DNA from: Gloeobacter kilaueensis JS1
Lineage (GTDB): Bacteria > Cyanobacteriota > Cyanobacteriia > Gloeobacterales > Gloeobacteraceae
Direction: 5' to 3'
DNA: 64,000 bases
NCBI RefSeq assembly: GCF_000484535.1
Contig: NC_022600.1
Coordinates: 124,001-188,000 of the forward strand
Below the pieces are notes generated by a model. That model worked only from the letters and a program-made list of their open reading frames with translations, made no database searches and was not told where the DNA came from. This document shows positions 7,539 through 35,173 of the stretch, piece after piece. How positions within the stretch are numbered: the first letter of the stretch is position 1; every line of letters begins with the position of its first letter. The position numbers and the translations under genes were made by a program.

Positions 7539-7791
7539 TCGCCTGCCATACCGACTTCGATATTCCTGCCTCAATAAACTTCTTCTACCTTTACACCGGC
7601 AATCCTCCATCCATAGAAGGGGCGAGGCGACGCTGCTATCTGAGTGCTCCAGGCTCCCTACACAGCGCAGTCGTTCCCAAAGCTGATTGATTATTCCTGT
7701 CCAATTCGAGCACCCGCTCCCACGCAGCGCAGTTTATTTTGGTCCAGCGTAAACGCAGGCTACCCATTTGACGACGGAGAGAAAGACAATC

Positions 7792-10700
7792 ATGAGTGGT
7801 CAACCAGGACAACCAACAGGCTCGCCGACCGCACCGCCCACCAATACGCCAACTCCCTCGCCCACAGCGACGAATACTCCTGCACCTTCACCGACAGCGA
7901 CGAATACTCCTGCTCCACAGCCGACGAGCACGCCTGCTACAAATCCTGGCAACCCACCTGCGAATCCCGCACATCAAGGCGGTGGGCATCAGACAACCTT
8001 CGGCGAGTGGGAATCGACGGCCAAGGATGTTGCGACAGCCGGTAAGGCGGCGGCAGTCGGGATGGACTCCTGGATCAAGACCGACGCAGCCGTGCTGGAG
8101 GCAAACAAGCAGGATTTTTATTCTCCTGGCCGTACCACTCCCAACACCGACCGGGTGACAAAAGAAAATTTCGATACGCCGAACGCCGCCGGTAGTCCTA
8201 CGGTCAAGAACATGACCAACCGCATCAAAGGCGGAGCGGCTGCTCTCGATGGCGTCCAGCAGATCTTCAAAGGCGTCGATGATCTTGAGAGCGGCAAATA
8301 TGTCAAAGCTGGTCAGGATGGGGCAAATCTGGCAAGCGACATCGCCAATCTCGGTGGATATAACCCCCTGACGGGTTCGGAGACCAAATCCTGGACTGGA
8401 ACGGCTGGTCTGTTTAGAGCCGCTGGTGGTGGTATCGGACTTTTCAACGACATTACCGATCAAAAATCACCAGAAGCCAAAAGAGATCTAAGCATTGCCG
8501 CCGACGGTCTCGACATTGCTGCCGGTACCACCAAGGCGCTTGAGAAATTCGGAGCCAGTCCACTGTTGGGCGGGGCTGCAAGCGATCTATTTGGTGGCTT
8601 AGCTGGCATTGCTTCCAACACCGCCAAACTCTTCGATCCCAACGCCACCACCCAGGACAAGGGAGCAGCCGTTTTCGGCGATGTCGTCTCCCTTGGCCAG
8701 ACCGCCGAGGGCATCAAGCGCGGCACGGCTTTTATCGGCAAACCGACGACACCACCCGGCGGCACGAGCGCCCCTGGAACTACTCCCAGCACTCCAGGCG
8801 GCACCAGCACCAGTGTCCAATCCGGCGCGAACACGAGCGTTCAATCTGGTGCCAACACCAGCGTTCAGTCTGGATCGAACACAACAATTCAATCCGGCAC
8901 TGATCCCAATGCCTCTGTTCCGGATCCGAACGCCTCAGCTCCAGATCCCAATGCTTCTGCAAATCCGGATCCGAATGCTTCTGCAAATCCTGACCCGGAC
9001 GCTTCGGCCAATCCCGATCCAGACGCTTCTGCCAATCAAGCAACGGCGGAAGAAGAAGCGCAACAAATTGCCGAGGAAGAGACACAACCTCTGAATGAGC
9101 AGGAAGCGCAACAAATCGCTGAAGAGGAGACACAACCTCTGACAGAAGAAGAAGCCCAACAGTTAGCTGAAGAAGAAACGCAACCTCTAACAGAAGAGCA
9201 GGCGCAACAAATTGCTGAAGAGGAGACTCAGCCTCTAACAGAAGAAGAAGCCCAACAGTTAGCTGAAGAAGAAGCTCAGCAAATTGCCGAGGAAGAAGGT
9301 CAAACAATTACCGGCGAGGAAGAGACTCAACCTCTCACCGAAGAGCAGGCGCAACAAATTGCAGAGGAAGAAACGCAACCTTTAACCGAAGAACAGGCGC
9401 AGCAGATTGCCGAAGAGGAAACCCAGCCTTTAACCGAAGAACAGGCGCAGCAGATTGTAGAGGAAGAGCCGCAACCGCTGACGGAAGAACAGCCCCAACA
9501 AATTGCCAGCGAAGAAACCCAGCCGATCACCAGTGAGGAGCCCCAGACTGTTCCAGAAGGGGAAGTCGAGCCAATCACCGCTGAAGCCGAGGTGCCGCCT
9601 ACTGAACCGTCTCCGGTAGCAGAAGAACCGCCGGTAAACGAGTTCGTGCCATCCGAGGCAGCCGCTCCTGAGACGGTCGTTCCCGAGGCAGTTGCGCCAG
9701 AAGTGGCAGAGAGTACCGAGGAGGCCGCGTCCATTATCGATTCGGCGATTCCGGGTACTGAGACGGCGAGTTCCGAAACGGCTGAGACGGTTGCTTCTAG
9801 TACTGCAAGGACAGTCGCACCAGAGCTGGCAGAAACTGCTGCCGTTGACGCTGTTGCACCGGGACTGGCAGAGGCCGCTGCCGTTGACACCGTTGCGCCA
9901 GGTCTGGTCGAAGCTGCTGCTCCTGGCGTTGTGGATGCAGTGGCACCAGGTCTGGTCGAAGCTGCCGCGCCCGGTCTGGTGGAAGCCGCTGCTCCTGGCC
10001 TGGCTGAAGCAGTTGTGCCGGGTCTGGTCGAAGCAGCGATTCCGGAAGCGGTCGAAGCTGGAGGTGTGCTGGCCGCTGAGGGTGGACTGTTAGCAGCGGA
10101 AGGGGCGAGCGGCCCGCCCGGCTGGGTAGCGGCTGCCGCCACAGCCGCTTACATGGGCGCTGACGCTCTTTCCGGTGGCAAGGTAAGTGAGGCGATCGGC
10201 GATACTGCCGTCGGTATCGGCAAGGGCGCGGTCGATGTCGGCTCAGCAGCAGTCGAGGCCGGTAAGGATGTTGCAGGCGGTGTCCACGATGCCGCCGTCG
10301 ATGGTGTCCACGACGCTGCCAAGGGCGGAACTGAGATCTGGAGCGGCATCCAGAACGCGGACCTGGGCCAGATCGGCGAGGGTCTGGGCGATCTCGGTTC
10401 GGGTGCTCTCAAGGTGGGCGAAGACATCACAGGCGCGCTGGGAGATGCGGGCGACGCTCTACTCTCCGGCGGTGAACAGGCGCTGAGTGACATCGGCGAT
10501 GGCCTGGGCAAAGCTGGCGAGGCGCTCAGCGAAGGCTGGCAGAACGCCGAGGAAAATGTCGGCAAGGCAGCGGATTGGGTCGGTGACACAGCCAACTTTG
10601 TCATCGAACACCCCGAGGAAGCTTTTGACAATACGGTCAACGCCCTGGGCGATGCCGGTGAAGCCGTTGCTGACTTTGCCGGTGATGCCTGGAATGCGAC

Positions 10701-12153
10701 GACCGATTTCGTCGGCAACGCCATCGAGCACCCCGAGGAGACCCTCCAGAATGCTGAGCAGGCGGTAGAAGGTGCTGTCGATACGGTCGGTGACTTTGCC
10801 GGCAATGCCGTCGATGCAGTCGGTGATTTTGCCGGGAACGCCCTGAATTCAGCCGGGGACTTCTTTGGTGGTCTGTTCAACGATGCGAAGGAGGCTGCCA
10901 GCGATTTCGCGAGCGACATCGGCGACGCGGCCAGTCAGGGAGCGGCTGAGGCCAATCAGCAAAACAACGCCTCCAGCGACGACTCAGGCGGCGGTTCCTT
11001 CCTGGATGGCGTCGGCGGCTTCTTGGGCGGCATCGGCGACGGTGTTTCCTCGCTCTTTGGCGGCGATGACAGTAGCTCCGACGATCAGCAACAACAGCCG
11101 ACGACAGACGATGGGCAGAGCGACGGTGACGGTGGCTTCTTCAGCGACATCGGCAACAGCATCTCCTCGCTGTTCGGTGGTGACGATGAGAACGCTTCGA
11201 CCGACCCACAACCGACGGACGGCGACACGGCGCTCGGTATCGAAGGTGCGGCTGAATTCCAGGACAACGGCGACACCACAGCCGACGCTGACGCCGATGG
11301 CAGTGACACAAGCGGCATCGGTGACTTTTTTAGCAACGTCGGCGATGACGCTTCATCGCTATTTAACGGGGATGACAGCAGCGGCGAAGGGGATGCCGAC
11401 GGTGGCATCGCCGATGCCGCTCAGGCAATTGGTGATTTTGCCGGCGATATGCTGGGCGATGTCTCGTCGCTCTTTGGTGGCGATGAGAGTACCGACGGCG
11501 ATGGCCAGGACGATGCCGCTGCCGGCGTCGATCCTGAGAACTACACCGAGATGCAGGCCGCCGGTCTGATGTCGGATTCGGAGTGGGCCGATGCGATGCT
11601 CGACGACGCCCGCGAGGCGATGGGCATGGATCCATCGGACGCCGACAGTGGGGCGGGAGCCGACAATTATCCCGCAGACGACGACAGCAACATCGGTGAT
11701 CCGGGCACTATCGCCGAGATGGGCGACATGGACGGCGAGACGGGCTTCCTCGCCGACGATGCCGGAGCGGGCGAAGATTCCGGGTACCTTCCTGGGGATG
11801 ATGCTGGTTCTGAGCTGGATGACGAATCGCTTGGCGACGGTGGAGCGAGTGCTTTCACCGACGACTTTGATGGCGATGGCGGCATCTACGCTGACTCTGC
11901 CATTGCGGACGATGCCACAGTTGACGACGATTCGGTTTCGGGCTTTACGAGCAGCGACGACGATTCGAGTGTCTACGACGACTCGGCTGTTGCCGATAAT
12001 TCCGCCGTATACGACGACTCGGCTGTTGCGGATGATTCTGCCCCGTCTGGGGACTACAGCAGCGATGAAGCGCCTGTGGAGGAGTCTGAGCCTGAGCCTG
12101 AACCAGAGCCCGAACCCCAGGAGGACGAGGGCGCTGACAGCTACGAAGAGTAG
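7792..12153 (+). CDS. Giant acidic repeat-built protein, unknown function
   Basis: 1453 aa from ATG 7792, preceded by GGAGAG. An in-frame TTG at 7768 would add eight residues. Order of parts: Pro/Thr-rich spacer (about 1-60); a helical, Gly/Ala-rich region that looks globular (about 65-325); four NTSVQSGA-type octapeptides; PDPNASAN repeats; about nine copies of a 16-residue Glu/Gln repeat; APGLVEAA repeats; a long amphipathic helical region rich in GDAG, FAGDA and EHPEE motifs; four FxxxIGxxxSSLFGGDD modules; Asp/Ser/Ala acidic repeats; a Glu-Pro tail. There is no signal peptide, transmembrane anchor, RTX nonapeptide or enzyme motif. The predicted charge is strongly negative. A scaffold, surface or condensate-forming role is conceivable but unsupported. 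A stem-loop follows the stop codon. Confidence 0.8.
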   Translation: MSGQPGQPTGSPTAPPTNTPTPSPTATNTPAPSPTATNTPAPQPTSTPATNPGNPPANPAHQGGGHQTTFGEWESTAKDVATAGKAAAVGMDSWIKTDAAVLEANKQDFYSPGRTTPNTDRVTKENFDTPNAAGSPTVKNMTNRIKGGAAALDGVQQIFKGVDDLESGKYVKAGQDGANLASDIANLGGYNPLTGSETKSWTGTAGLFRAAGGGIGLFNDITDQKSPEAKRDLSIAADGLDIAAGTTKALEKFGASPLLGGAASDLFGGLAGIASNTAKLFDPNATTQDKGAAVFGDVVSLGQTAEGIKRGTAFIGKPTTPPGGTSAPGTTPSTPGGTSTSVQSGANTSVQSGANTSVQSGSNTTIQSGTDPNASVPDPNASAPDPNASANPDPNASANPDPDASANPDPDASANQATAEEEAQQIAEEETQPLNEQEAQQIAEEETQPLTEEEAQQLAEEETQPLTEEQAQQIAEEETQPLTEEEAQQLAEEEAQQIAEEEGQTITGEEETQPLTEEQAQQIAEEETQPLTEEQAQQIAEEETQPLTEEQAQQIVEEEPQPLTEEQPQQIASEETQPITSEEPQTVPEGEVEPITAEAEVPPTEPSPVAEEPPVNEFVPSEAAAPETVVPEAVAPEVAESTEEAASIIDSAIPGTETASSETAETVASSTARTVAPELAETAAVDAVAPGLAEAAAVDTVAPGLVEAAAPGVVDAVAPGLVEAAAPGLVEAAAPGLAEAVVPGLVEAAIPEAVEAGGVLAAEGGLLAAEGASGPPGWVAAAATAAYMGADALSGGKVSEAIGDTAVGIGKGAVDVGSAAVEAGKDVAGGVHDAAVDGVHDAAKGGTEIWSGIQNADLGQIGEGLGDLGSGALKVGEDITGALGDAGDALLSGGEQALSDIGDGLGKAGEALSEGWQNAEENVGKAADWVGDTANFVIEHPEEAFDNTVNALGDAGEAVADFAGDAWNATTDFVGNAIEHPEETLQNAEQAVEGAVDTVGDFAGNAVDAVGDFAGNALNSAGDFFGGLFNDAKEAASDFASDIGDAASQGAAEANQQNNASSDDSGGGSFLDGVGGFLGGIGDGVSSLFGGDDSSSDDQQQQPTTDDGQSDGDGGFFSDIGNSISSLFGGDDENASTDPQPTDGDTALGIEGAAEFQDNGDTTADADADGSDTSGIGDFFSNVGDDASSLFNGDDSSGEGDADGGIADAAQAIGDFAGDMLGDVSSLFGGDESTDGDGQDDAAAGVDPENYTEMQAAGLMSDSEWADAMLDDAREAMGMDPSDADSGAGADNYPADDDSNIGDPGTIAEMGDMDGETGFLADDAGAGEDSGYLPGDDAGSELDDESLGDGGASAFTDDFDGDGGIYADSAIADDATVDDDSVSGFTSSDDDSSVYDDSAVADNSAVYDDSAVADDSAPSGDYSSDEAPVEESEPEPEPEPEPQEDEGADSYEE
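9049..9540 (+). repeat. 48-bp tandem repeat coding a 16-aa Glu/Gln motif
   Basis: Inside the giant protein gene. The unit reads roughly EQAQQIAEEETQPLTE, present about nine times, with one partial insertion unit (around 9265-9320). DNA copies differ mainly at third codon positions, so the array is being kept at protein level and not just copied by recent slippage. Confidence 0.85.
11020..11490 (+). repeat. Four dispersed SSLFGGDD modules
   Basis: Inside the giant protein gene. Each module is a 15-17 residue amphipathic segment ending in SSLFGGDD, SSLFNGDD or SSLFGGDE, separated by 25-50 residues of Asp/Ser/Gln linker. The hydrophobic Phe/Ile/Leu pattern against acidic linkers looks like sticker-and-spacer or docking motifs (inference). 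Confidence 0.75.
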
Positions 12154-26310: not shown

Positions 26311-29549
<3,239 letters not shown>

Positions 29550-29749: not shown

Positions 29750-29818
29750 ATGGCAGACCAGCACCAATTGTTACCTGGACAACGCTTTTTGTCCTATACT
29801 GGATATCCAGAAGGATAG
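29750..29818 (+). CDS. Possible 22-aa peptide with a perfect Shine-Dalgarno sequence
   Basis: ATG at 29750 is preceded at five bases by AGGAGGTGA (29739-29747), a full match to the anti-SD sequence. The frame codes 22 residues (MADQHQLLPGQRFLSYTGYP and two more) and stops at TAG 29816. No membrane segment or runs of a single regulated amino acid were seen. Such a strong site before so short a frame suggests a real peptide, a leader, or the broken start of a longer gene. Confidence 0.35.
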   Translation: MADQHQLLPGQRFLSYTGYPEG

Positions 29819-30140
29819 CCTCTCTGCAGTGTTCTACTATCTCCTTCGGGATATTTCTTTAGAAAGCTAGAAAGCATCCAGTTCCATAATATTTGTCTGC
29901 TCTAATAACGGAAGATTGGCTGACGGTTCAGAAAGTAAAAGTCGCGAATGCCCGACAAATTAGAAACCCAACCGGCCTGAATTCTTGTTAGAACAAAAAC
30001 TCCGCTAAAACACTGTTCAAAAAGCTATCCTCGGTAGCATTTCTTGTTCTGAAAATGAACAAGAAATGAATAATTTTTGGGCTGCACCCAGGTCTAGGTC
30101 GCGATAGAATCTGGTTGTAGGGGATTTCAAGGTAACAGCA
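29819..30140. other. AT-rich gene-free region
   Basis: Clearly lower GC than its surroundings. It contains a perfect 12-bp inverted repeat (30038-30068) and the likely promoter for the gene at 30141. All frames are interrupted; nothing protein-like was seen. Confidence 0.5.
30038..30068. repeat. Perfect 12-bp inverted repeat
   Basis: CATTTCTTGTTC and GAACAAGAAATG are exact reverse complements separated by 7 bases. AATAATTTTT follows on the plus strand, so it could act as a weak terminator, but the AT-rich stem and location 73 bases before the next gene also fit an operator. Confidence 0.55.
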
Positions 30141-30929
30141 ATGGAGTCGATTCTTCTGGAGCTTCTTGGTGAGGGCGGTGGCAGCATTTCTGTCGCAACC
30201 CTGCAGGGTGTTCTCACAAAGGAGTACGTGCAACAGGTCTTCCAGCAGGTTTTAGTCGCTCAAGGCCAGTGGGCCGAAGACTGGATTTTGAATGTAACCA
30301 TAGATTCTCCAGAGAGCGACTGGTCCCTGAAGCAACAACCCTTCGTATTCGTCCAGATTCAGCTAGTAAATAACCGTAACCTGCTCAGCAAAAGAGTGGG
30401 TGCAGGTGAGACTGCCCACGACGATCGCGGCCTCTACGGCTGGCACGCGGCGGTGAGCCGCCGGGTATCGCAACTGATGGAAGCGGCTCCCGTTCTGGCG
30501 GCCACTCCCGTTCCAGCCGAAGCGAGCGGTGCGCGCAACTACTATCTTGTCAACTTCTACGCAAGAGATCCGGTCGCGGGCCGGGCGAGCAGCCATGTCT
30601 GCCAGGTAGAACTCGATCAAAATAGTGGCTGGACGCAGATCGAGGGCTTCAACAACAAGTTGCCCTACTGTCGCCACGAGCACTTCCTGACGATCGGCTC
30701 GCTGAATCTGCCTTACCGGGATGCCTGGGAGGCGTGCAAAGCCGGCTGGGACACCGTGTTGCTCACGGCGCAGCATCTGGTGAACCTGCTCAACTACTTG
30801 CAGGCAGAAGGCTGGCTCTGCCCGGTCGGCCACCCGGCTCTGGCGATCGTCTTTAGAACCGGTATCGAGATTGCCCTCGCCGACCTCGAAGAGGCGATCG
30901 AGCCTTACCGCCTGCACGCGGTCGCCTGA
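30141..30929 (+). CDS. Unknown two-domain protein, first gene of a five-gene cluster
   Basis: 262 aa, ATG with AAGG seven to eight bases upstream. The first 85 residues (MESILLELLGEGGGS... V-QQVF-Q-LV... ESDW...) align by eye, without gaps of note, with the whole N-terminal part of the 100-aa protein at 32454, so both carry the same module. The second domain (about 120-262) begins after a Pro/Ala linker, has strands NYYLVNFYARD and CQVELDQ, a Cys-His pair (YCRHEHF) and a helical end; no family recognised. Followed after 134 bases by a CAP-domain protein gene, with a GC-rich hairpin (CGGGGC/GCCCCG near 30945) between. Confidence 0.6.
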   Translation: MESILLELLGEGGGSISVATLQGVLTKEYVQQVFQQVLVAQGQWAEDWILNVTIDSPESDWSLKQQPFVFVQIQLVNNRNLLSKRVGAGETAHDDRGLYGWHAAVSRRVSQLMEAAPVLAATPVPAEASGARNYYLVNFYARDPVAGRASSHVCQVELDQNSGWTQIEGFNNKLPYCRHEHFLTIGSLNLPYRDAWEACKAGWDTVLLTAQHLVNLLNYLQAEGWLCPVGHPALAIVFRTGIEIALADLEEAIEPYRLHAVA

Positions 30930-31063
30930 GACAAATTTTGAGCGGGGCGCTCGCCCCGACGGTCGAGCATCCACCCACCTGTTCCATCTATAAAATCCGG
31001 TAGAGCCTGAGCGCTGCTGCCTGATTTTGCAACACACCTTCGCGTCTTTAGAGGTTTCAAGCA

Positions 31064-31723
31064 ATGTCGGTTTCTCTCAAGCACCGCACGGGGATGCGGC
31101 TGGTATTTTGTTGCCTGTTTGTCTCGCTTCTCGCTCCCGCCCAAAAACTTATGGCCCAGACCGTATCGGGATGCGGGGACACTTCCCAAGAAGCGCTCAA
31201 GGCTTTTAACTACCTCAACGAAATTCGCCAGCAACCGCAGGTCTACGGCGAGCGCATCGGTCTGAGCCTCGGCAAAGTGCGTCGGCTTGCGGCGCTGCAC
31301 TGGAATCCCCGGCTGTCGGAAATTGCCCAGAAGCGGGCAGAGAACATGGCGCGGCGCAACTACTTCGCCCACGTCGATCCCGATGGTGTCGGTCCCAATC
31401 GCTTTGTCATCGGTGCCGGTTACCATCTGCCCAGCTATTATCCGAGCGATTCTGAGGCCAACACGGTCGAATCGCTGGCTGCCGGAGCGCCGACGGGCAA
31501 CGAAGCGATCGACGATCTGATGATCGACAAGGGTGAGATGCCACCCTCGCACCGCATTCACCTGCTCGCCCTCGCCTCGCCCTTCGATCGACACACCGAG
31601 GTCGGTATCGGTGTCGCCTGCTCGGCTGCCAGCGACTACCAGTATTACTACGAAGTTCTGACGGCACCGCCGGAAGCGATTGCCACCCGCCGCACAGCCC
31701 GGATACGGACAGTCAAGGAGTAA
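31064..31723 (+). CDS. Exported CAP/SCP-domain protein
   Basis: 219 aa with a signal peptide (positive start, hydrophobic stretch about 11-25, cleavage plausible after MAQ). The CAP fold is indicated by FNYLNEIRQQP, LHWNPRLSEIAQKRAENMAR and NYFAHVDPDG, then a polar stretch with ANTVESLAAG and the late SHRIHLL, equivalent to the usual GHR motif. Bacterial CAP proteins are extracytoplasmic and thought to bind lipids, metals or peptidoglycan. The response regulator gene starts three bases after its stop, and AAGGAG for that gene lies inside this one, so the two are coupled. Confidence 0.85.
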   Translation: MSVSLKHRTGMRLVFCCLFVSLLAPAQKLMAQTVSGCGDTSQEALKAFNYLNEIRQQPQVYGERIGLSLGKVRRLAALHWNPRLSEIAQKRAENMARRNYFAHVDPDGVGPNRFVIGAGYHLPSYYPSDSEANTVESLAAGAPTGNEAIDDLMIDKGEMPPSHRIHLLALASPFDRHTEVGIGVACSAASDYQYYYEVLTAPPEAIATRRTARIRTVKE

Positions 31724-31725
31724 CG

Positions 31726-32421
31726 ATGAACAGCTCTCCTGCTCCAATTTGCGTACTGCTGGTCGAAGATCATCCGCTGGTGCGCTGGGCTCTGGCGAGC
31801 CTGCTGGCTCAGCACAACCGTTTTCTGGTCGTCGGCCAGACCGATAACGGCGAGCAAGCCGTGTTGCTGGCGGCGAAACTCAAGCCCGACCTCGTGCTGA
31901 TGGATATCGACCTGAGGGGAATCGACGGCATCACCGCCACCTCGCGCATCAAACAGTTCTGGCCGGCCATCCGGGTACTGGCGCTCACGGCCTTTGCCGA
32001 AGAAAGCCATGTCGTTGCCATGCTCGCTGCCGGTGCCGACGGCTACTGCACCAAGTGGATCGAGGGCCGCCAGCTCATCTCGGCGATGGAGGTGCTCCAC
32101 AGAGGGGGAGTCTACCTCGACGCAGAAGTGGCCGGGAAGCTGGCGTCGCTGGTAAAACCCGCCGGTGAGTCTCCTGCTGCTGCAGCCGCACCTTCTCTGC
32201 CACCGCTGCCCAAATTGACGGCGGCTGAGCAAAAAATCTTGAGGCTGCTCGCCACCGGCCACTCCAACAAGGACATCGCGGACAAACTCCGCCTGCCCCA
32301 CGGCACAGTCAAGTTTCACGTGCGCAGCATCCTCACGAAACTGGGAGCCGACAATCGCACGACGGCAGCCGTCCGGGCTCTGCAGGAAGGACTGACCGAG
32401 AATTTGCCCTTGAGCGACTGA
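31726..32421 (+). CDS. NarL/FixJ-type response regulator, orphan
   Basis: 231 aa. The receiver domain has the acidic pocket VEDH, the phospho-acceptor Asp in LVLMDIDL (about residue 59), a conserved Thr/Ala region (LALTAFAEE) and Lys in GYCTKWI. A Pro/Ala linker (about 145-160) leads to a LuxR HTH: LTAAEQKILRLLATGHSNKDIADKL in part, then GTVKFHVRSILTKLGADNR in part. No histidine kinase is adjacent. The gene lies inside the cluster with the two module-sharing proteins, so it may control them or be phosphorylated by a distant kinase. Confidence 0.92.
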   Translation: MNSSPAPICVLLVEDHPLVRWALASLLAQHNRFLVVGQTDNGEQAVLLAAKLKPDLVLMDIDLRGIDGITATSRIKQFWPAIRVLALTAFAEESHVVAMLAAGADGYCTKWIEGRQLISAMEVLHRGGVYLDAEVAGKLASLVKPAGESPAAAAAPSLPPLPKLTAAEQKILRLLATGHSNKDIADKLRLPHGTVKFHVRSILTKLGADNRTTAAVRALQEGLTENLPLSD

Positions 32422-32453
32422 CACCACCTTCTTTGATACGAGGCAGGACAACG

Positions 32454-32756
32454 ATGGAAAGCGTACTTCTCAAACTTCTTCGCAGTGGCGGCGGCAGCGC
32501 CGTCACTCCCGCTGTCGAGATGGGCAGCCTGAGCGCCGAGGACGTGCAGCAAATGTTTCGGCGGCTGCTCGTCGAGCAGGATCTCAACCCGGAAAACTGG
32601 TCACTGCAGATTGAGGTGTGCCTGCCGGAGGACGATTGGCCGCTGCAGGAACTCGCCTACATCGTCTGCCGGGTGCGCTGTTATGCGCCGCGCCGCCGTC
32701 TCTCGCAATTTGGCCTGCTGCGGTGGCTCCTGCAGCGGCAGAGCAAAGCCGCCTGA
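32454..32756 (+). CDS. Small unknown protein sharing a module with the protein at 30141
   Basis: 100 aa from ATG 32454, AGGA five bases upstream. Nearly its whole length matches the N-terminal domain of the 262-aa protein: both start MES-LL-LL--GGGS, then share V-QQ-F--LLV, a W about residue 45, and a -E(S/D)DW- motif. The last 20 residues are basic (RRRLSQF...LLQRQSK). The pair seems to be the product of duplication, with this copy lacking the second domain. Function unknown; no family recognised. Confidence 0.6.
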   Translation: MESVLLKLLRSGGGSAVTPAVEMGSLSAEDVQQMFRRLLVEQDLNPENWSLQIEVCLPEDDWPLQELAYIVCRVRCYAPRRRLSQFGLLRWLLQRQSKAA

Positions 32757-32800
32757 AGCCGGCACCGAAACCCTTGTTTATATAACGGACGGAAGACCCC

Positions 32801-33373
32801 ATGTCATTTTCAGCCAGAGATCTGGCCGCCAGTTCCTCCAGAAGCCCCAGCTTTGCCCTGCGGCCCCTGCAGCGCATCGCCTCTGCGGCCCGCTACGATC
32901 CGAAGCTGGCCTGCCTCGATCTCATCGAGAGCCGGGGCAGCTGTACCCTTGATCAGCTCGTCAAAGTGCTGCAGTTGCCCAGAAAGCACGTCTTCGATCA
33001 TCTGAGTTACCTGTTGGCAAGCAGCTATCTTGCCCGCACCAGTGCTGGAGTGTATTATCTCGTGCCCCAAAATGATGCCCAGGGCGTGCTCAATTGCCTG
33101 CGTGGGCGCAGGGCGACACTGCTTGAAATCGCCCTGGAGTGCAACTTTGAACGCAGCGACAGGCTCGGTCCCGATCTCGATGCTGCCAAAGCAGTGCTCG
33201 ACTGGCTGATCTTCTTAAATAAAGTTCAGCTCAAGGAGGGTGAATTTTTTCTGGTCTTTCAGGATGGGGATGGACCGGCAGGCAGCGAGAACGACCTGCT
33301 GTCTTCCCAACCTTTCTATCTTGAAGAAGAGGCGGAGGCTGAAGCTAAGGCGGATACGCCTTACCGGCAATAA
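32801..33373 (+). CDS. Protein with two winged-helix-like domains
   Basis: 190 aa. After a Ser-rich start, residues 40-90 read as a winged helix: helix ACLDLIESRG, turn and recognition helices SCTLDQLVKVLQLPRKHVFDHLSYL in part, and wing YLARTSAGVYYLV. A second similar unit follows (about 95-155: VLNCLRGRRATLLEIALECN ... AVLDWLIFLNKVQLKEGEFFLVF in part). The C-terminal tail is acidic. This suggests a DNA-binding or protein-binding regulator with tandem winged helices. It ends the co-directional cluster; no terminator with a T-run was seen after it. Confidence 0.6.
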   Translation: MSFSARDLAASSSRSPSFALRPLQRIASAARYDPKLACLDLIESRGSCTLDQLVKVLQLPRKHVFDHLSYLLASSYLARTSAGVYYLVPQNDAQGVLNCLRGRRATLLEIALECNFERSDRLGPDLDAAKAVLDWLIFLNKVQLKEGEFFLVFQDGDGPAGSENDLLSSQPFYLEEEAEAEAKADTPYRQ

Positions 33374-33701
33374 CCAGAGATAAGCGGCAGCACATCCCGG
33401 TTGGCGGTGGTCTGCAGTTGGTCTATCCAACCTTCATATCAGCTTTAAGTTCGAGTCTAGGGAATCCTTTATCTTGGTCTATAGATACCAGCGCCGTTCT
33501 ACCCCCCAAAGCGAGTAGATGGTTCTGCAAGCAGAGCTTTCCAGGCTTGTTTCAGAAGCACCCTACCGTGAGTGGGAGATAGCGGCACCAATCGTTCTGC
33601 GTCTGCGCGAGCCTCCCTCCTCGCATCGATCGTCGTCAATCTTGCCCATGGCCTTTCCACCATGTGGAATTCGTCTTACTTTTTACCGAGAGGAGAGCAG
33701 A
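33374..33701. other. Gene-free region
   Basis: Contains two copies of TTGGTCTAT (33418 and 33474) and no convincing start before ATG 33702. The frame of the following HTH gene stays open upstream to 33519 but the residues there look non-coding. No structured RNA or terminator recognised. Confidence 0.4.
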
Positions 33702-34214
33702 ATGCCGAGGCGGATTACCATTACTCCGCATTTGAGTATCGAGGAACTAGAAAAGCGCTATCGGCGCGCTTCCGATGCCGTTGTCCGCGCCCAGTTTCAG
33801 ATTCTCTGGCTGTTGAGCCAGGGCAGATCGACCCGGCAGGTGGCCGAGGTGACAGGCTACTCAGCACCCTGGATCCGGATGATCGTTCGCCGCTACAACC
33901 GCTCCGGCCCTGCTGCGATTACCGATGGCCGGCGCACCAATCCCGGAGCACAACCGCTACTGCCAGAACAGTTGCAGAGCGAGTTGTACCGGGCGCTTCA
34001 GGCCGATCCGCCCGATGGGGGCAAGTGGAACAGCCGCAAGGTGGCCGAATGGATGAGCAAGCAACTGAACCGCTCCGTCGCCGTGCAGCGGGGCTGGGAG
34101 TACCTGCGTGCTCTCGAAAGCGATGCGCCCCCGTTCCAGATGCCCCACCCGCGCATTCAGTCGCTGGCGGCCCGATTCCGCAAACAGATCGAAGACGACA
34201 ATCCCACCGATTGA
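33702..34214 (+). CDS. IS630-type helix-turn-helix protein (transposase N-terminal half)
   Basis: 170 aa from ATG 33702, preceded by GAGGAGAG. It starts with strands RITITPHLSIEELEKRYR, then a helix-turn-helix (ILWLLSQGRSTRQVAEVTGY, WIRMIVRRYNRSGPAAITDGR in parts) and a second winged-helix unit with GKWNSRKVAEWM. This is the DNA-binding half of IS630/Tc1-mariner-like transposases. The DDE catalytic half is absent: the frame stops at 34214 and the next sequence belongs to a minus-strand gene. No terminal inverted repeats or TA duplications were recognised. It may be a remnant or a domesticated DNA-binding protein. Confidence 0.75.
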   Translation: MPRRITITPHLSIEELEKRYRRASDAVVRAQFQILWLLSQGRSTRQVAEVTGYSAPWIRMIVRRYNRSGPAAITDGRRTNPGAQPLLPEQLQSELYRALQADPPDGGKWNSRKVAEWMSKQLNRSVAVQRGWEYLRALESDAPPFQMPHPRIQSLAARFRKQIEDDNPTD

Positions 34215-35065: not shown

Positions 35066-35137
35066 GGCGGCATAGCCAAGTGGTAAGGCAAGGGTCTGCA
35101 AAACCCTCATCCGGCAGTTCAAATCTGCCTGCCGCCT
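35066..35137 (+). tRNA. trnC: tRNA-Cys (GCA)
   Basis: Complete cloverleaf: acceptor stem GGCGGCA/TGCCGCC, D-arm with AGCCAAGTGGTAAGGC, anticodon stem AGGGT/ACCCT around loop CTGCAAA with anticodon GCA, T-arm GGCAG-TTCAAAT-CTGCC. The discriminator base is U, as required for Cys identity. CCA is not encoded. A -10-like TATGAT lies at 35037-35042. Confidence 0.97.
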
Positions 35138-35173
35138 CTTCATCCAGACCAGCTTCGCAACTGGAATTGAACG

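Follow-up and report, generated by a model that had tools for sequence, protein, structure and literature searches.

NarL/FixJ response regulators consist of a receiver domain and a GerE HTH domain, and for the NarL type an adjacent cognate kinase is usual but not required. Members of the bacterial YkwD-like CAP superfamily are characterized by a His/Glu/Glu/His residue set. We describe here a neighborhood of Gloeobacter kilaueensis JS1 in which one member of each of these families is encoded beside two proteins that share an N-terminal module without a recognized family, and compare it with these known systems as well as with the SpoVS/Alba fold and the N-domain of ClpC, which the module superficially recalls.

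The five-gene locus and its surroundings

The window, i.e. the whole stretch of 64,000 nucleotides that was analyzed, corresponds to positions 124001-188000 of the G. kilaueensis JS1 chromosome (a single-contig genome of 4,724,791 bp), and coordinates are given in its numbering. A preliminary description, made from the window alone, reported five co-directional genes at 30141-33373, and all five ORFs are indeed found there on the + strand:

30141-30929, + strand: 262-aa protein, shared module (residues 1-84) and a C-terminal region; assigned by module homology, no family match
31064-31723, + strand: CAP-domain (PF00188) protein, 219 aa, probably exported; assigned from Pfam, conserved residues and a hydrophobic N-terminal stretch
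31726-32421, + strand: NarL-type response regulator, 231 aa, receiver and LuxR/GerE HTH; assigned from Pfam and receiver residues
32454-32756, + strand: 100-aa protein, shared module alone with a short tail predicted to be helical; assigned by module homology and model
32801-33373, + strand: probable double winged-helix protein, 190 aa; assigned from weak winged-helix matches and a distant G. violaceus homolog

An alternative TTG start at 32433 would extend the 100-aa ORF to 107 aa. Consecutive genes are separated by 134, 2, 32 and 44 nt, in that order. The last four therefore form a tight group, from which the gene of the 262-aa protein is set apart. The latter is separated by a 615-nt spacer from the upstream ilvC gene on the other strand. 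Part of this spacer (29768-30140) has a G+C content of 41%, compared with 61% for the window, and contains a perfect 12-bp inverted repeat with a 7-nt loop (30038-30068). This repeat lies about 70 nt before the 262-aa gene, has an AT-rich tract after it and is present as a single copy in the genome. The predicted RNA fold of this region is 3.7 sd better than that of shuffled sequences, and the repeat is possibly an operator or a terminator. The spacer is neither repeated in the genome nor conserved, the Rfam search returned no RNA family, and we found no unusual structure in the GC-rich 134-nt gap that follows the 262-aa gene. As the codon-position GC resembles that of the neighboring genes, there is no sign of recent foreign DNA.

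A tRNA-Cys gene (GCA) lies at 35066-35138 on the + strand, 1.7 kb downstream of the cluster, and its 3' end is not repeated in the window. Between the cluster and the tRNA gene, at 33519-34214 (+ strand), is encoded an HTH_29/HTH_32 protein, which we take to resemble the N-terminal part of IS630-type transposases, with no catalytic part recognized adjacent to it. Elsewhere in the window (7768-12153, + strand) we observed a 1461-aa acidic protein of low complexity without a Pfam match, which carries an AAPGLVEA array in addition to repeats of 8 and 16 residues (EEEAQQIAEEETQPLT).

The CAP protein, the response regulator and the winged-helix protein

The 219-aa protein had been proposed to be an exported CAP protein. 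Its CAP identity is firm (PF00188, 42.4 bits against a gathering cut-off of 21.1), and its export is probable, judging from the hydrophobic stretch that begins at residue 13 after a basic N-terminus. The His/Glu/Glu/His set typical of YkwD-like CAP proteins is intact (YFAH, VESLAAG, TEVGIG and SHR in the alignment) and conserved in five homologs; presumably these residues have the cavity roles generally ascribed to them. The protein differs from the YkwD-like CAP proteins in belonging to a Gloeobacterales subgroup of its own with two Cys residues, also conserved in the five homologs, and its score against the spore YkwD model TIGR02909 does not reach the cut-off (26.2 vs 171). Homologs with 48-52% identity are encoded by three genes in two other Gloeobacterales genomes, and a paralog with 47% identity is found elsewhere in the G. 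kilaueensis genome. Among the neighbors of the CAP homologs that we compared, there were no relatives of the module, of the regulator's subfamily or of the 190-aa protein.

The assignment of the 231-aa protein as a NarL-type regulator is borne out by matches above the cut-off to both Response_reg (92.6 bits) and GerE (60.5 bits), and the Asp phospho-acceptor, Thr and Lys of the receiver are retained, as in other NarL/FixJ proteins (LVLMDIDL, LALTAF and YCTK, aligned with homologs). Its closest homologs, namely the best paralog (52% identity) and a protein from a sister genus (51% identity), each directly follow a gene for a CHASE3-HAMP-HisKA kinase, whereas the regulator of the G. kilaueensis locus has no adjacent kinase. 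The nearest kinase seen is a GAF/PAS HisKA protein on the same strand (26311-28515), with ilvC in between on the other strand. A conserved pair of a CHASE3-HAMP-HisKA kinase and a NarL-type regulator was observed in two genomes (L083:6973-9149 and L087:4405-6647), in both of which the adjoining gene encodes a protein with a DNA primase-like beginning.

The tandem winged-helix architecture suggested for the 190-aa protein is plausible, yet the matches are below every family cut-off: weak winged-helix hits at residues 34-80 and 41-71, and PDB 4o5v with an E-value of 0.01. The second winged-helix domain finds its sole support in a distant homolog of 155 aa from G. violaceus PCC 7421 (L089:8637-9104, - strand). 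The two proteins are 27% identical over the full alignment, with the strongest similarity over the second domain, and share the motif F-R-D-LGPD-D---AVL; the G. violaceus gene sits in an unrelated gene setting. Cyanobacterial matches to the profile of the 190-aa protein cover the first winged helix only, and those that we read represent one family, presumably similar to the SufR regulators.

A duplicated module detected only at this locus

The N-terminal module reported to be common to the 262-aa and 100-aa proteins proved genuine. Residues 1-84 of the former align with residues 1-85 of the latter with one gap and 33 identities in 84 aligned codons (40%), and the start codons of the two proteins agree (MES-LL-LL). 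The local score of 150 is about 27 sd above that of shuffled sequences (mean 28.5, sd 4.5, maximum 57), and in a whole-genome search the pair is recovered with an E-value of 9e-13. Of the possible frames, the one on the + strand has by far the highest score, and 17 of the 33 identical residues are encoded by different codons. Identities at the first, second and third codon positions amount to 48, 62 and 43%, which indicates that the module is conserved at the protein level.

Within the G. kilaueensis genome the module occurs twice, both times at this locus. In eight other Gloeobacterales genomes and about 385 other sampled cyanobacterial genomes, searches with the single sequences and with the two-sequence profile gave matches at chance level only, none of them convincing as a relative. 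That such a search is able to detect relatives is indicated by the recovery of ilvC and of the regulator in nearly all Gloeobacterales genomes searched. There were likewise no relatives in plasmids and phages (tblastn) or in IMG/VR and GTDB contigs (pattern scans), all of these scans reaching close relatives only. The module had been described as unrecognized, and it matches no family above the cut-off in Pfam, NCBIfam, PHROGs or PADLOC; in the same four collections nothing significant was found for the C-terminal region of the 262-aa protein.

A few candidate similarities were considered and rejected. The GGGSA loop recalls the DUF4147 glycerate kinase, but the match falls short of the Pfam gathering score of 23 (12.9 bits, rising to 15.9 when the query is cut to its first 43 residues) and spans only 31 of 234 positions. 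The short motif E-x-LL-x-LL-x-x-G-x-G of the ClpC N-domain repeat (Clp_N) recurs in the module; single repeats, however, gave E-values from 6 to 68, the value of 0.05 being obtained by summing two repeats, and Clp_N is all-helical, which the model of the module is not. For the C-terminal part of the 262-aa protein, a match in G. violaceus (E-value 0.001, 57 residues, interrupted by one stop) does not look like an orthologous gene and was set aside as probably due to chance.

As judged from sequence comparison and within the reach of these searches, the two proteins are a lineage-restricted (orphan) paralogous pair, and the module appears to constitute a two-member protein family that has not been described. 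Fast divergence past recognition may alternatively account for its orphan status.

Proposed readings: a species-specific neighborhood or one functional unit

Our preferred reading, which we hold tentatively and at somewhat less than even confidence, is that the neighborhood is species-specific rather than a conserved system, with a module gene duplicated beside a probable operon of CAP, regulator, module and winged-helix genes. Two diverged copies of the orphan module, one free (100 aa) and one fused to about 180 further residues, are found at this locus only, and both the CAP protein and the regulator have paralogs and homologs in other contexts. Orphans are common in G. kilaueensis, as 313 of its proteins lack database hits and 493 genes were gained in the lineage (PMC3806779). 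Chance could account for where the two module genes lie within the set.

According to this species-specific reading, the CAP, regulator, 100-aa and winged-helix genes would share one transcript, as their spacing suggests. Their expression would follow phosphorylation of the regulator, with either an unlinked kinase or the GAF/PAS kinase as the donor, while the 262-aa gene would have its own promoter downstream of the 615-bp spacer. Stand-alone paralogs of fused domains often modulate the fused counterpart; by analogy, the two modules may pair, the small protein thereby tuning the larger one's activity in the cytosol. The CAP protein would be a separately useful exported product.

The preliminary description instead suggested that all five genes are one functional unit, perhaps for envelope sensing with a cytosolic adaptor. 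In such a signaling unit the CAP protein would be exported, the response regulator would sense via a kinase, and the module proteins would be cytosolic adaptors linking the response regulator to the winged-helix one. The common strand, the tight spacing of four genes and the way in which the module copies flank the CAP-regulator pair are consistent with such a unit, which we nonetheless regard as unlikely. The gene order was found in no relative, the other Gloeobacterales genomes searched lack the module, and the 134-nt gap and the separate spacer dissociate the 262-aa gene from the others. The association is not conserved either, as the CAP homologs, located in unrelated contexts, are linked neither to a module nor to a related regulator, and the closest regulator homologs follow kinases. 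By conservation of gene order, the criterion that the preliminary description itself had set, the unit is not upheld, although this is a weak test here, because the module has no orthologs and the genus Gloeobacter shows little synteny (PMC3806779). The surroundings of ilvC, near which no neighboring gene is shared in four relatives, are uninformative. Beyond the probable export of the CAP protein, nothing points to envelope sensing.

Equally doubtful is the interpretation of the neighborhood as an acquired island whose orphan genes come from an unsampled mobile element. It would explain why the module genes are orphans, and the tRNA-Cys and the transposase-like HTH gene nearby agree with it. 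On the other hand, the codon composition is host-like, the 3' end of the tRNA gene has no repeat in the window, scans reaching close relatives found no match in phages, plasmids or IMG/VR, and no integrase was seen among the ORFs read.

Predicted structure of the module

AlphaFold2 models based on two-row alignments show the module in both proteins as helix-strand-helix-strand-strand with modest confidence, the pLDDT of the block being about 58-82 in the 262-aa model and about 50-82 in the 100-aa model; the remainder of the 262-aa model is below 50. Structural comparison of the module models yielded no match with Z of 5 or more, and Foldseek no E-value below 0.04. With both models, SpoVS ranks among the best matches that cover the whole domain, at Z 4.3-4.5 and an rmsd of 3.5-4.6 over 70-72 aligned residues; it is tied with other folds, and several Alba chains rank below it. 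The order of helices and strands is similar to that of the SpoVS/Alba fold minus the first strand.

The module might then be a diverged nucleic-acid-binding SpoVS/Alba domain without its first strand, and the pair small chromatin- or RNA-associated proteins. We find this improbable, since small alpha/beta folds that are unrelated usually give Z-scores under 8, other folds match equally well, and the module is acidic (net charge -5 and -3 in the two copies), with no SpoVS or Alba family among the Pfam matches listed up to an E-value of 10, from which weak matches had been filtered. Because both models use the same two sequences and such Z-scores are common, the predicted likeness is weak, a lead that proves nothing. 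It is very unlikely that the module is a new domain restricted to one Gloeobacter lineage and acting as a paired cytosolic adaptor that couples the orphan regulator to a double winged-helix partner.

Implications

If the module did turn out to be the regulator's adaptor, it would represent a new signaling part. Lineage-specific genes are common, and on present evidence the finding is a modest one: the module pair is a case of lineage-specific paralogs and not a new kind of system. With its orphan domain duplicated into a fused and a stand-alone version, it provides a handy case for studying the establishment of new domains in an early-branching cyanobacterium.
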